A DNA stretch of 41,587 bases from Bathymodiolus heckerae thiotrophic gill symbiont (GTDB lineage: Bacteria; Pseudomonadota; Gammaproteobacteria; PS1; Pseudothioglobaceae). The stretch lies in assembly GCF_900180345.1 (NCBI RefSeq), contig NZ_FXLV01000004.1:1-41587 (forward strand). The letters are read 5' to 3'. Below, piece by piece: positions 18,064 to 25,186 of the stretch (position 1 is the stretch's first letter; every line of letters begins with the position of its first letter). The position numbers were made by a program, and so were the translations under genes. The notes below the pieces were generated by a model. It saw only the letters and a list, made by a program, of their open reading frames with translations. It was not told where the DNA came from and made no database searches.

Positions 18064-18225
18064 AAGACCTTTGCATAAATATGAATGATTAACAGAATTC
18101 AATTTTTGCGAACTTGGTATTTTTTTTAAACTCTGTCCTAGCAAGGCTAAGGCTGGGTTTAAAAAAATTACCAAGTTGGTAAAAAGTGGATTTTTGATGA
18201 TTATTCATATTTATGCAAAGGTCTC
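18064..18225. mobile_element. Foldback MITE, copy A
   Basis: A 162-bp element bounded by AAGACCTTTGCATAAATATG on the left and the reverse complement CATATTTATGCAAAGGTCTC on the right, matching except for the outermost left base. The inner halves also pair (ACTTGGTA with TACCAAGT, TTTAAAC with GTTTAAA), so the whole unit is a long hairpin. The centre is CTGTCCTAGCAAGGCTAAGG. It encodes nothing evident. The termini equal those of the transposase relic near 32280, which suggests mobilisation in trans by an IS5-type transposase. The flanking 3-bp sites are not identical. Confidence 0.85.
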
Positions 18226-18237
18226 AAATAATATAAT

Positions 18238-18380
18238 GAGACCTTTGCATAAATAGGGATGATTAGCAAAATTCAATTTTTGCCAGATTGGTGATTTTAT
18301 TAAACCTTGTCCTAGCAGGGCTGAGGCTGGGTTTAAAAAATCGCCAAGCGGGTGAAAAATAATCATCAAATATGCCTATA
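18238..18380. mobile_element. Foldback MITE, copy B (right end decayed)
   Basis: It starts with a perfect GAGACCTTTGCATAA at 18238 and follows copy A closely through ATGATTA, AATTCAATTTTTG, CTTGTCCTAGCAGGGCTGAG and GGCTGGGTTTAAAAAA. The right terminal repeat is degenerate and merges with the pstS terminator near 18380. Only 12 bp separate it from copy A, so the two form a direct tandem pair. It is the older-looking copy. Confidence 0.8.
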
Positions 18381-21230: not shown

Positions 21231-21926
21231 ATGAAAAAAATTATTCTGTCCGCCATGCTAATGGCAAGCACGCTATTTTTAACTGGCTGTTTTTTAACCA
21301 CAGCAATCAGCACCACCATTTTGGTCTCTAACGACAGACGCACTAGCGGTGAAATTCTTGATGACAAAGGCACTCAATTGATGCTACTTATTTGGCAGAC
21401 AAATGAAAATGAAATGTTAGAAGACGCACATTTAAACTTTTTGGCTTTCACTGGAACAGTGTTAGTAACAGGCGAGGTGCCTACTGCTGCTGTGCGTGAT
21501 TACCTTACTACACAAATACCTTTAGAAGATTCTAAAATTAAAAAAGTTATTAATGAAGTGCGTATTGCAGAAAATAGTAGCCTATTTGATCGCATAAAAG
21601 ATTCATCCATTACTGGGCAAATTGAAGTATTATTTCTTAATCAAGAGGTGTTTAATCCTGTGCATGTAAAAGTTACTACGGAAAATCGCACTGTCTATCT
21701 CGTGGGCTCTGTTACTCAACGCGAAGCAAATCATGCCACAAAAATTGCCTCTATGGCAAAAGGCGTAAAACGCATTGTTAAATTATTCCATTATCTAAAA
21801 AACCGTCCTGCAGCTGAAATTGAACACGACAAACAAAAGAAAATTGAAGCAGAAAATGAAGCCAAAAAAGCAGAACTACAACGCCAAAATCAACTGTCAA
21901 CCCCTGCTTTTGACTGGGGAAAATGA
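21231..21926 (+). CDS. dolP: BON-domain outer-membrane lipoprotein (DolP/YraP-like)
   Basis: A 231-residue lipoprotein precursor with lipobox FLTGC (Cys20). [20 protein letters not shown] is typical of DolP. Two BON domains follow: one around 60-125 ([12 protein letters not shown]-like strand) and one around 130-200 ([12 protein letters not shown]). DolP helps keep the outer membrane intact in Escherichia coli. A charged tail of about 30 residues extends beyond the second domain. The last 30 bp overlap the end of rnhB on the other strand. Confidence 0.87.
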
Positions 21927-22451
21927 ATAACGGTGCTGACTTTTAATTGCACCAAATTTTCCCAATGCAATTAAATGTTGTTTTGTGCCATAACCCTTAT
22001 GCTGTGCAAAGCCGTATTCAGGGTGAAAAACATCTAATTCAATCATCTGCCTATCGCGGGTTACTTTGGCAATAATTGATGCAGCTGAAATAGCCGGCTC
22101 GGTTAAATCGCCTTTAATAATGGGCATGCAATTTTCCAGTTTAGGACAACGATTGCCATCTACCAAAACCCTATCATATTGAATATTCAAACTTTCTACT
22201 GCACGCTTCATTGCTAGCATCGTGGCTTGCAGAATATTAATATCATCAATTTCATTCGCACTTGATTCACCCACTGCCCACTGGCATTGGTCAGTAATTA
22301 GGGTGTATAAAACCTCACGCTTTTTCTCGCTGAGTTTTTTAGAATCGGTCAATTCAGGCAAATCAAAATCATCAGGCAAAATTACCGCACCTGCCACCAC
22401 ATTGCCTACCAAACAGCCTCTGCCCACCTCGTCAACGCCAATAATAATCAT
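21897..22451 (-). CDS. rnhB: Ribonuclease HII
   Basis: RNase HII removes ribonucleotides from DNA. It is 184 residues, at the short end of the family. The catalytic start IGVDEVGRG gives Asp7 and Glu8, and VLVDGNRCP and [13 protein letters not shown] carry further active-site and substrate contacts. The start overlaps the fic stop by 4 nt. Its 3' end overlaps dolP by 30 bp in the convergent direction. Confidence 0.95.
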
Positions 22452-23758
22452 TTGTAAGCCTTGATGCGTTGCTCTAAGTCGTTTGGTGCAATAAAAACAA
22501 AGGCTCGTCCTTGTTTAGCGTGTTGTAATAAGTTAAGTTTTGACAAACCCACCAAGTCAGTTTTTGCAGTTTGATAACTAATAGATTGTGAAATTTTATG
22601 CCCTGCAATGGTATAAACCGAACCGGGATATTTTAGTGCATGTTGAATGACCATGGCTTGGCGTGAATTGACTTTGCCATTACTTAAATAATTACCTAAT
22701 AAATTAAGTGCTTGTTGCTGTTGCTGTTGCTTTTCATCAACATAATCAAACAATCCAGCAATAGACTGGGTAATAAATTTAAGCTGGCTGTTAATAAAAT
22801 AAGTCAAATCAAATTCATCACTTTCAACCATTAAAAATGACTCTCCATATTGAACTTGCGCTTTCTTAATATACCTTGACAAGGTAATATATTGAAACAA
22901 CCAATAATTATTTTTCAAAATCACCCAATAAAACAAAGCCCTTGTAGTGCGCCCATTACCATCAGCAAAAGGGTGGTCATATGCCAAAGCAAAGTGCACA
23001 ACAATCGCCCGAATAATGGGATGCACAAAATAATCAGGTGCACTGCCATTAGCAAAATCGCACAAGACTTTTAGCCTACTGGGCAGTTCTTGAAAATCAG
23101 GCGGATGATGCAAAATGGTCTGTGTGCTATTATCAATCACATTAACTTCATTGTCCCGCCTAAGTTTACCAACCTCTGAATTATCCATCGTTCCCTTGGT
23201 AACAATGGTATGTAGTTGCAAAATCAAACTTGGGGTTAACTCGTCTTGTTTATGCTCGTTAATAAATTTAATGGCATGATAATTATTGTAAATCATTTTC
23301 TGCGAATGGTCTTCAGGTGTTTTGTTGTGTTTCAACATCTCCCGTGCGACCTTTCTAGTGGTTGCTGCACCTTCCAATTGGGAGGAACTAATCGCCTCAT
23401 CTATTAATGAACGCACAATATACCTGTCTTTATTATTATCAATATTTTTGGCCTCAAGTGAGCCACGCATTTTTGAATCTATCTCATGGAGATTTTTCTG
23501 AATATCATCTGTCAAAACAAAAGAGAAATCCTCAGAAAAAGGCAACTTTTTTTGCTGTTGCAAGCGTGAAAATTTAATAAAATGCCAATATTGATCAATA
23601 TCATCAAACTTATCAGGTGTTTTTAGATGGCGTAATTTATCCCAATGCAAATAGCGTTTTTTTTCATCAACAACAGTAGGCACAATCCCTTGTTGTATTT
23701 TTTCAAATGATACAAGCGATGTTTTCAAAGAAGTTTTAGGTGGCAGAACAATTTTCAT
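22448..23758 (-). CDS. Fic family protein with C-terminal winged helix
   Basis: Fic proteins usually transfer AMP from ATP to hydroxyl side chains. Numbered from an upstream ATG at 23785, the motif [12 protein letters not shown] (271-282) holds the catalytic His and the full loop. SSQLEG at 134-139 fits the [S/T]xxxE[G/N] inhibitory helix, so this is a class II, self-inhibited type. The last 60 residues look like a winged helix ([16 protein letters not shown]). A run of six Gln precedes it. I chose the ATG at 23758 because a TATAAT overlaps the upstream ATG. It overlaps rnhB by 4 nt. The target is unknown. Confidence 0.88.
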
Positions 23759-23783
23759 AAAAAACGACAAGTAAAAAATTGCC

Positions 23784-23823
23784 ATTATATCACTAATTAC
23801 TAATTTTTATTAAATTAGTAATT
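23784..23823 (-). promoter_or_regulatory. Candidate fic promoter with a 29-bp inverted repeat
   Basis: AATTACTAATTT (23795-23806) and AAATTAGTAATT (23812-23823) are perfect 12-bp arms around 5 nt. On the minus strand TATAAT follows 5 bp later (23789-23784), so the palindrome covers the -35 to -10 spacer. A weak TAATAA lies in the -35 position. This is the geometry of a repressor site. The wider gap to purD (23786-23914) also has GGGTTAAT / ATTAACCC arms, with no T-run. Confidence 0.5.
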
Positions 23824-23914
23824 AAATAAAATTTTTGGCATATTCTTTGTGTTAACGGGGTTAATCTTATACTCAGACTTATGAATTAACCCTTAATACC
23901 CACCCATAATAACA

Positions 23915-25186
23915 CTAACTACTAATCGCTTTAAAGCCAATATCGGTACGATAATAAGCATTTTCCCAATCAATTTTTTGCAACAATGTATAAACGTTTA
24001 TCTGCGCATCTTTGGTGTTTATTCCGAGTGCGGTAGCGCACAACACACGCCCGCCATTGCTGACAACATTATTGCCATCTATTTTGGTGCCAGCATGAAA
24101 TACTTTTGCCGATACACTGTCCTCAGGCAACCCAATCACCTCGCCTGAAAGATAGGTATCTGGGTAGCCATTTGCCGCCAAAACCACGCCCATTGATGAG
24201 CGAGCGTCCCATTCAATTTCCGCTTGGTCTAATTTTTGTTGCGTTGCCAACAAGCATAAATCTGCTAAATTAGACTTTAGACGCATCATAATTGGCTGAG
24301 TTTCTGGGTCGCCAAAACGACAATTGTATTCCAAAACTTTAGAATGCCCTTGCTGATCAATCATCAGCCCTGCATACAAAAAACCCGTATAAGGACTACC
24401 CTCAGCCGCCATACCCTCAACTGTTGGGCGGATAACCGTGTCCATTACATCCTGAAAAATCTCATCGGTAACAATCGGCGCTGGCGAATACGCACCCATG
24501 CCACCAGTATTCGGGCCTTTATCGCCGTTGTCTCGTGCCTTATGGTCTTGCGAAGTCGCCATTGGCAAGATATTTTTGCCATCCACCATTACAATAAAAC
24601 TCGCCTCTTCCCCCCTTAAGAACTCCTCAACCACAACACGAGACCCTGCCTCACCAAAGCGATTGCCTTCTAGCATATCATTAATCGCATCGGCTGCTTC
24701 TTGTTGAGTGTTGGCAATAATCACACCTTTACCTGCTGCCAATCCATCTGCTTTAATCACAATCGGCACGCCTTTATCTTGCACATATTGCACTGCTGGT
24801 TCTACCTCGGTAAAAACATCATAAAAAGCGGTTGGAATGTTATTTCTATCTAAGAAATCTTTACAAAAAGCTTTTGAACCTTCCAGTTGTGAAGCCGCTT
24901 GAGTAGGCCCAAAAATCGCCAAATTCTGTGCTTGAAATGCATCTACTACACCCATCACCAACGGCGCTTCAGGGCCTACAATAGTAATATCAATCCTATT
25001 ATTTTTGGCAAAGTCAATCAAAGCATTGGTGTCCTCTACGCCAATATCAACATTCGTAAGCTTATTTTCTAGCTCTGTGCCTGCGTTGCCCGGTGCAACG
25101 AACACCTCCTCAACACTATCAAACTTAGCACACTGCCAAGAAATAGCGTGCTCACGACCACCGCCGCCAATTACCAATACTTTCAT
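23915..25186 (-). CDS. purD: Phosphoribosylamine-glycine ligase (GARS)
   Basis: PurD joins glycine to phosphoribosylamine in purine synthesis. The 423-residue ATP-grasp enzyme shows the N-terminal VIGGGGREHAI, IVGPEAPLVMG, KADGLAAGKGV, NTGGMGAYSPAP and EYNCRFGDPETQ blocks. It starts 8 nt after an unrecognised gene, and no purH accompanies it here. Length and motifs leave no doubt. Confidence 0.97.
   Translation of the reverse strand: MKVLVIGGGGREHAISWQCAKFDSVEEVFVAPGNAGTELENKLTNVDIGVEDTNALIDFAKNNRIDITIVGPEAPLVMGVVDAFQAQNLAIFGPTQAASQLEGSKAFCKDFLDRNNIPTAFYDVFTEVEPAVQYVQDKGVPIVIKADGLAAGKGVIIANTQQEAADAINDMLEGNRFGEAGSRVVVEEFLRGEEASFIVMVDGKNILPMATSQDHKARDNGDKGPNTGGMGAYSPAPIVTDEIFQDVMDTVIRPTVEGMAAEGSPYTGFLYAGLMIDQQGHSKVLEYNCRFGDPETQPIMMRLKSNLADLCLLATQQKLDQAEIEWDARSSMGVVLAANGYPDTYLSGEVIGLPEDSVSAKVFHAGTKIDGNNVVSNGGRVLCATALGINTKDAQINVYTLLQKIDWENAYYRTDIGFKAISS

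Follow-up and report, generated by a model that had tools for sequence, protein, structure and literature searches.

The closest described counterpart of the system analysed here is CccR of Yersinia pseudotuberculosis, a Fic protein with a C-terminal helix-turn-helix (HTH) that, in the part of PMC9755527 accessible to us, acts through a palindrome to repress the promoter of its own gene: deletion of CccR raised promoter activity 3.3-fold, and mutation of the palindrome abolished binding. The same paper identifies structure 7XUX as CccR. A second relative, CbFic2 of Coxiella burnetii (8CIL), is a class II Fic protein with a winged HTH that binds DNA; the accessible part of PMC10628234 describes experiments with random DNA and reports no specific operator, and its authors point out that SoFic had yet to be shown to bind DNA. 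Across the full-text literature seen in part, which lies outside preprints and most subscription journals, CccR was the sole Fic autorepressor found, and neither a conserved Fic operator nor a recognition code was encountered (PMC9755527, PMC10628234, PMC12249575, PMC12894286). On this partial view of the sources, one Fic autorepressor is known, and a shared operator together with a recognition code is apparently new. A correspondence between residues of the winged helix and the half-sites of an operator makes the role of this domain in Fic proteins testable by swap.

We analysed a 41,587-nucleotide stretch of DNA (the window) from the thiotrophic gill symbiont of Bathymodiolus heckerae; fic sits between purD and rnhB in the window's family. 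Its product is a Fic AMP-transferase: the Fic/DOC domain scores 61.6 bits against PF02661 (cut-off 24) and carries HPFADGNGR, which fits the defining motif HPFx(D/E)GN(G/K)R. Class II Fic proteins are defined by an N-terminal (S/T)xxxE(G/N) helix ahead of the Fic domain, and the window protein belongs to this class: S125, E129 and G130 do not vary in alignment A1 or in the 38 sequences of the alignment used for structure (A2; the window plus 37 loci picked from 80). In the AlphaFold2 model (mean pLDDT 84, pTM 0.81), the protein ends in a winged helix, as the first-pass annotation had proposed, with helices at residues 365-376, 384-391 and 395-407 followed by two strands.

Solved structures that cover both the Fic and the winged-helix parts include 7XUX, 3ZCN, 3EQX, 8CIL and 4RGL. 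By VIA-align, the model scores highest against Dde_2494 of Desulfovibrio desulfuricans G20 (4RGL; Z 27.6, rmsd 7.5, 315 aligned over the Fic and C-terminal parts), a protein for which we know of no function or operator; next come SoFic (3zcn_A; Z 26.0, rmsd 5.0, 335 aligned), which likewise joins a Fic domain to a C-terminal winged helix, CccR (7XUX; Z 25.2, rmsd 5.9, 325 aligned) and CbFic2 (8CIL; Z 25.1, rmsd 9.9, 325 aligned). The best Foldseek match is CccR (E 3.8e-11, with roughly 19% of residues identical when aligned by structure), spanning residues 74-427. The window protein falls outside the SoFic equivalog NF046030 (53.2 bits against a cut-off of 550), and the PADLOC SoFic profile PDLC03963, for which no cut-off is given, matches at E 2.3e-41 (140 bits).

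CccR and the window Fic, both of class II, share a C-terminal winged HTH and an inverted repeat near the -35 and -10 of their own promoters, and differ in the layout of that repeat: the CccR footprint, AGATAATCAT-N26-ATGATAATCT, spans 46 bp with 10-bp arms and a 26-bp gap in the accessible part of PMC9755527, whereas the core at the window promoter spans 23 bp with 7 bp between 8-bp arms. Table 1 lists the features of the locus.

Table 1. Positions of the fic promoter, its neighbouring genes and the principal motifs of the Fic protein, in window coordinates
Feature	Position	Strand	Basis
Inverted repeat, perfect 13-bp arms, 5-nt loop	23794..23824	.	computed; chance from shuffles
Putative operator core, 23 bp, TACTAATT-n7-AATTAGTA	23798..23820	.	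geometry common to most sampled orthologues
-10 hexamer TATAAT, TGn in front	23784..23789	-	starts 8 nt after the 23-bp core
Weak -35-like TTAATA, inside the putative operator	23808..23813	-	promoter scan
fic, 436 aa, start 23758 (conserved), stop TGA 22450-22448	22448..23758	-	
rnhB (RNase HII), ATG overlapping the fic TGA (AAATGATT)	21897..22451	-	
purD, upstream neighbour of fic	23915..25186	-	
Fic catalytic motif HPFADGNGR (H262-R270)	22949..22975	-	sequence; mostly unchanged across alignments A1 and A2
Class II inhibitory motif SSQLEG (S125-G130)	23369..23386	-	alignments A1 and A2
C-terminal winged helix-turn-helix, about residues 361-436	22451..22678	-	AlphaFold2 model; structure matches to SoFic, CccR and CbFic2
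Predicted recognition helix, residues 395-407	22538..22576	-	AlphaFold2 model
Tyr395-Gln396, co-varying with half-site positions 2 and 3-4	22571..22576	-	covariation counts

The palindrome in front of fic is a real feature. Read along the minus strand, the order is TAATTACTAATTT-aataa-AAATTAGTAATTA, 4 bases, TATAAT, 25 bases and the fic ATG at 23758; the arms occupy 23794-23806 (TAATTACTAATTT) and 23812-23824 (AAATTAGTAATTA). The first-pass annotation had placed a perfect palindrome with 12-bp arms between the -35 and -10 of the only TATAAT upstream of fic. The repeat is indeed perfect and the TATAAT is the sole one within 23700-23950, but the arms measure 13 bp, and the repeat covers the -35 region as well as most of the spacer. 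TGA precedes the hexamer on the minus strand (23789-23784), making an extended -10; the best -35-like hexamer lies at a spacer of 18 nt, and together the two hexamers agree with the consensus at 10 of 12 bases. Taken by itself, the promoter call does not exceed chance, with 2 promoter-like sites found by the scan against a shuffle mean of 3.1; the second of these, at 23906-23935 at the end of purD, contains a related half-site (ATTAGTAGTTAGTGTTATTAT). The gap between purD and fic is 156 bp long, and perfect arms of at least 12 bp (loop 3-12) occurred in 7 of 3000 dinucleotide shuffles of it, arms of at least 13 bp in 1 of 3000, so that the observed arms exceed chance expectation. The whole window holds three inverted repeats with arms of at least 13 bp, compared with none in 40 shuffles, and the other two appear by eye to be terminator-like and transposon-end-like. 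A perfect repeat with TTATGCAAAGGTCTCA arms at 18214-18249 resembles transposon ends, and in one relative of the window genome (G005; L012/L198), whose fic winged helix looks frameshifted, an insertion behind purD is bordered by a similar end.

We consider it highly likely that this palindrome serves a self-repressing Fic protein as its operator, and very probable that the winged helix is what binds it and represses the promoter; what has been demonstrated for CccR (in the accessible part of its paper) is here inferred from the comparisons below. In the mechanism that we infer, a Fic dimer would sit on the 23-bp core with one winged helix per half-site, and the bound protein would cover the -35 region and spacer and so shut off fic, with the overlapping downstream rnhB silenced along with it. 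The benefit would be low amounts, for as long as it is not needed, of an AMP-transferase that is self-inhibited yet potentially toxic, and the operator thus suggests how cells might quiet a self-contained AMP-transferase without an antitoxin gene.

We gathered orthologous loci among relatives of the window genome, from the best 80 contigs of 547 relatives in named genomes and from a class-wide draw. Many of the named loci are metagenome bins, some with doubtful labels. Among 138 loci scanned, 132 had a tblastn hit, and removal of 17 duplicates, fragments and decayed genes left 115 non-redundant loci. Additional draws by phylum and by order yielded only 5 and 4 new loci, and later draws none; among the additions, L143-L145 have another type of helix, and L161, part of the held-out set below, duplicates L061. 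In plasmid records there were 17 matches and in phage records 2, all of them distant. The homologues on viral contigs (L167-L193) are 29-39% identical, and their recognition helix mostly reads ENTAR or YNTA; the class-blind caller found no repeat with at least 7/8 outer pairs among them, and we treat them as a separate subfamily, a decision taken after seeing their sequence.

An inverted repeat at p<=0.05 occurs upstream of fic in 83 of the 115 loci, each compared with 60 shuffles of its own 150 nt and uncorrected for the number of loci. In that this spacing-blind score is noisy, the top repeat often not being the coded operator, we turned to half-site pairs at fixed spans. Exact pairs are most frequent at an outer length of 23, with TACTAA (37 loci), TATCAA (13), TACTTG (9), TGCTAA (7) and TACCAA (5); a second, lower maximum at 34 corresponds to one more turn of the DNA helix. 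When aligned, the classes share T-R-Y-Y-N-N with mostly T-rich inner flanks, inverted at 23 bp. The half-sites used for these tests were chosen by eye after seeing the sequences, and a class-blind caller and a scan of all protein columns serve as checks.

For the first-pass annotation, a missing palindrome in near relatives whose fic is intact would have counted against its proposal. The repeat is kept: each of L004-L009 has an intact gene and, ahead of the -10, an inverted repeat of 23 bp. Its distance from the promoter is less uniform. The core lies 8 nt from the -10 in the window, L003, L005, L007, L008, L010 and L011, about 11 nt in L009, and 28-29 nt in L004 and L006, where occlusion of the promoter would therefore have to differ. 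Between the right arm and the -10 of L004, a draft assembly whose fic is 98% identical, the 7-bp unit TAATTAG occurs in tandem, possibly a slippage site that alters the spacing between operator and promoter (29 vs 8 nt). The spacing in L004 and L006, together with the looser of the tree counts given below, slightly tempers our confidence in self-repression.

The same displacement is among the observations that would suit a different use of the site, in which Fic binds the operator mainly as an enzyme switch or an activator, the DNA setting its AMPylation or deAMPylation state and repression being secondary. In the accessible part of PMC10628234, DNA stimulates CbFic2, which forms dimers on it; the tight binding of CbFic2 to random DNA counts against our main reading. 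Larger assemblies on DNA are also conceivable, as 38 of the 83 loci with an expected pair have at least two pairs at spans 22-24, and some pairs stand at span 34. Nevertheless, the window operator covers the spacer and the -35 region, where repressors usually bind, and CccR, as far as the accessible text of PMC9755527 goes, represses through just such a site and its deletion derepresses the promoter. We therefore judge this possibility unlikely, if still worth serious consideration, and prefer self-repression.

If the Fic protein itself reads the palindrome, the sequence of the half-site should follow the residues of the predicted recognition helix. Residue counts used 112 loci, L012, L013 and L022 having been set aside with a frameshifted or truncated winged helix. 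Grouping by residues 396-397 assigned 100 of them to four groups, the other 12 having different residues. At spans 22-24 or 33-35, TRCTAA pairs occur in 52 of 62 loci with Gln396-Thr, TATCRR pairs in 16 of 20 with Ala396-Thr, TACCAA pairs in 5 of 7 with Asp396-Thr, and TACTTG pairs in 10 of 11 with Asp396-Val/Ile. Thus 83 of the 100 loci have the pair of their own group (81 at spans 22-24 alone), and none has the pair of a different group. Those 83 loci include members of ten named phyla, among them Verrucomicrobiota, Planctomycetota and Binatota, and their GC content is at least 55% in 38 cases, with the geometry seen up to 70% GC. The last 200 nt of the flank, a downstream control, held group pairs in 0 of 95 loci, and the control spans 26-30 and 38-43 held pairs in 3 and 2 of 100. 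Among the 17 loci with no exact group pair, several have one with a single base changed, and L101, L107 and L064 (only 115 nt upstream) show no recognisable pair.

Both checks recover this correspondence. The class-blind caller's distinction between TC and not-TC matches Ala or Gln396 in 55 of 55 loci (41 rows gave no call), and its 41 Gln loci comprise 38 with CT on both sides, one with CT on one side and two unrelated repeats; a caller tuned to the family agrees in 67 of 68 (24 rows with no call). The unguided scan compared 426 protein columns across the 81 loci with exactly one half-site class, L091 being excluded as double. For half-site positions 3-4 it ranked residue 396 first and residue 400, one helical turn beyond, next; for position 2 it ranked residue 395 first; and for positions 5-6 it placed residue 397 first, narrowly and on the basis of a single clade. 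All of these residues lie in the opening stretch of the recognition helix that the AlphaFold2 model predicts. A switch of this kind lies close to the window: L003-L006 pair Gln with TACTAA, and L007-L011, whose Fic proteins are 70-78% identical to that of the window, pair Ala with TATCAA or TATCGG. In L007-L009 the arms and the recognition helix have changed in step, an argument for Fic itself rather than the partner protein that the first-pass annotation had allowed for.

On a tree built without the winged helix, we counted independent pairs on well-supported (starred) branches. The independent Gln/Ala pairs change together in 3 of 3 cases with the blind caller and in 3 of 4 with the family caller, the fourth not differing; the Asp/non-Asp pairs do so in 3 of 3 with the family caller and 2-3 of 3 with the blind one. 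No independent switch runs opposite to the rule, and the switches are so few that 3 of 3 cannot reach p 0.05 by a sign test. The Tyr395 rule is looser, with exceptions in 4 of 48 loci (family caller) or 3 of 41 (blind) and the expected direction in about 2.4 of 5 or 2.9 of 4 pairs on the tree, the rest not differing. A small held-out set gave mixed results: L141 fits (8/8 outer pairs, TATCAATT), L165 (Glu) has TACTAA, L166 (Asn-Gln) shows TCCTAA, and for three related proteins with Ala396 (L162-L164) the half-site is TATTAA, against a prediction of TATCAA. These three are missed by the class-blind caller, which drops two-letter half-sites, and they indicate that Ala396 determines T at position 3 more reliably than C at position 4. 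The covariation table predicts, from two or three residues, the DNA target of each protein.

The covariation bears directly on whether some regulator other than Fic binds the palindrome, a reading that we hold to be very improbable: the half-site class follows Fic residues 395, 396 and 400 with no mismatched pairing among the 100 classed loci, and relatives with no fic between purD and rnhB lack a coded site. A purD match was present in 52 of 60 family genomes, and 18 of the 30 purD loci fetched had no Fic match; a coded repeat was present at none of the 17 that had enough sequence to judge. At most of these loci rnhB appears by eye to follow purD directly, with another gene there otherwise, and one such genome (G046) has a fic gene of the TACTTG group elsewhere (L015). 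Because loci with no fic also have no coded palindrome, gene and operator seem to come and go together at this place. What speaks for another regulator is that two decayed remnants of fic keep the palindrome (L021, 8/8 outer pairs; L024, 7/8), which reflects either recent decay or maintenance by something else; a third remnant (L026) has lost it. The 12 fixed bases of the operator have one exact copy in the 1.44-Mb genome of the window and one-mismatch copies at 7 places, which makes a wide Fic regulon unlikely. A looser pattern finds one more genomic place (C13:9835, span 18 bp).

A purD terminator or a transcript hairpin would suit the position of the palindrome, which follows purD on that gene's strand and might fold in RNA reading through from it; to such a role we assign a still smaller probability. 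The scan found no terminator-like site here, and the arms consist almost wholly of A and T with no T run behind them; the repeat lies upstream of the -10 and hence outside a transcript starting there, it is absent from purD loci with no fic, and pairing in RNA would leave both the match to the protein helix and the fixed 23-bp span unexplained. The 24% GC of the purD-fic gap would favour coincidence, or a mobile repeat in AT-rich DNA, and both can be practically dismissed in view of the shuffles, the single exact genomic copy and the persistence of the geometry in GC-rich loci. We have set aside the terminator, hairpin, mobile-repeat and unknown-partner readings.

The upstream ATG at 23785-23783 overlaps the TATAAT and would thus precede any transcript start set by this promoter. 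Translation from 23758, which the first-pass annotation had favoured, agrees further with the retention of its M in the orthologues L004-L013 and with an in-frame TAA between the promoter and this M in four of them (L010-L013). At the other end of the gene, the overlap of the fic TGA and the rnhB ATG (22448-22451) makes it probable that rnhB is co-transcribed under the fic promoter, in which case expression of RNase HII may depend on it.

It is possible, although we advance this only tentatively and think it less probable than its negation, that Fic proteins with a C-terminal winged helix, SoFic included, are generally self-regulated one-protein toxins, in which operator DNA would both repress the gene and set the state of the enzyme (for example, dimers being silent or deAMPylating), and in which recognition would evolve through two or three helix residues. 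The anti-phage SoFic family (3EQX, 3ZCN) differs from the window in its DNA, with a TGTCGA-type half-site at span 27. These half-sites, at fixed spans, were found in the 400 nt around and upstream of the SoFic starts of 12 loci (L224-L235; 10 over the family cut-off and 2 others): convergent pairs at an outer length of 27 are present in 10 of 12, divergent pairs at 25 in 10 of 12, and the downstream control contained 0 half-site pairs. SoFic itself may be an operator-binding autorepressor. SoFic-like proteins below the family cut-off had pairs at 4 of 18 loci vs 2 of 18 downstream, and we make no claim for them as a group. About 15 half-sites are present at L235 of the SoFic family, and perfect repeats with 15-16-bp arms containing TGTATAGAAA/TTTCTATACA lie upstream of two SoFic-like genes (L245 and L253).
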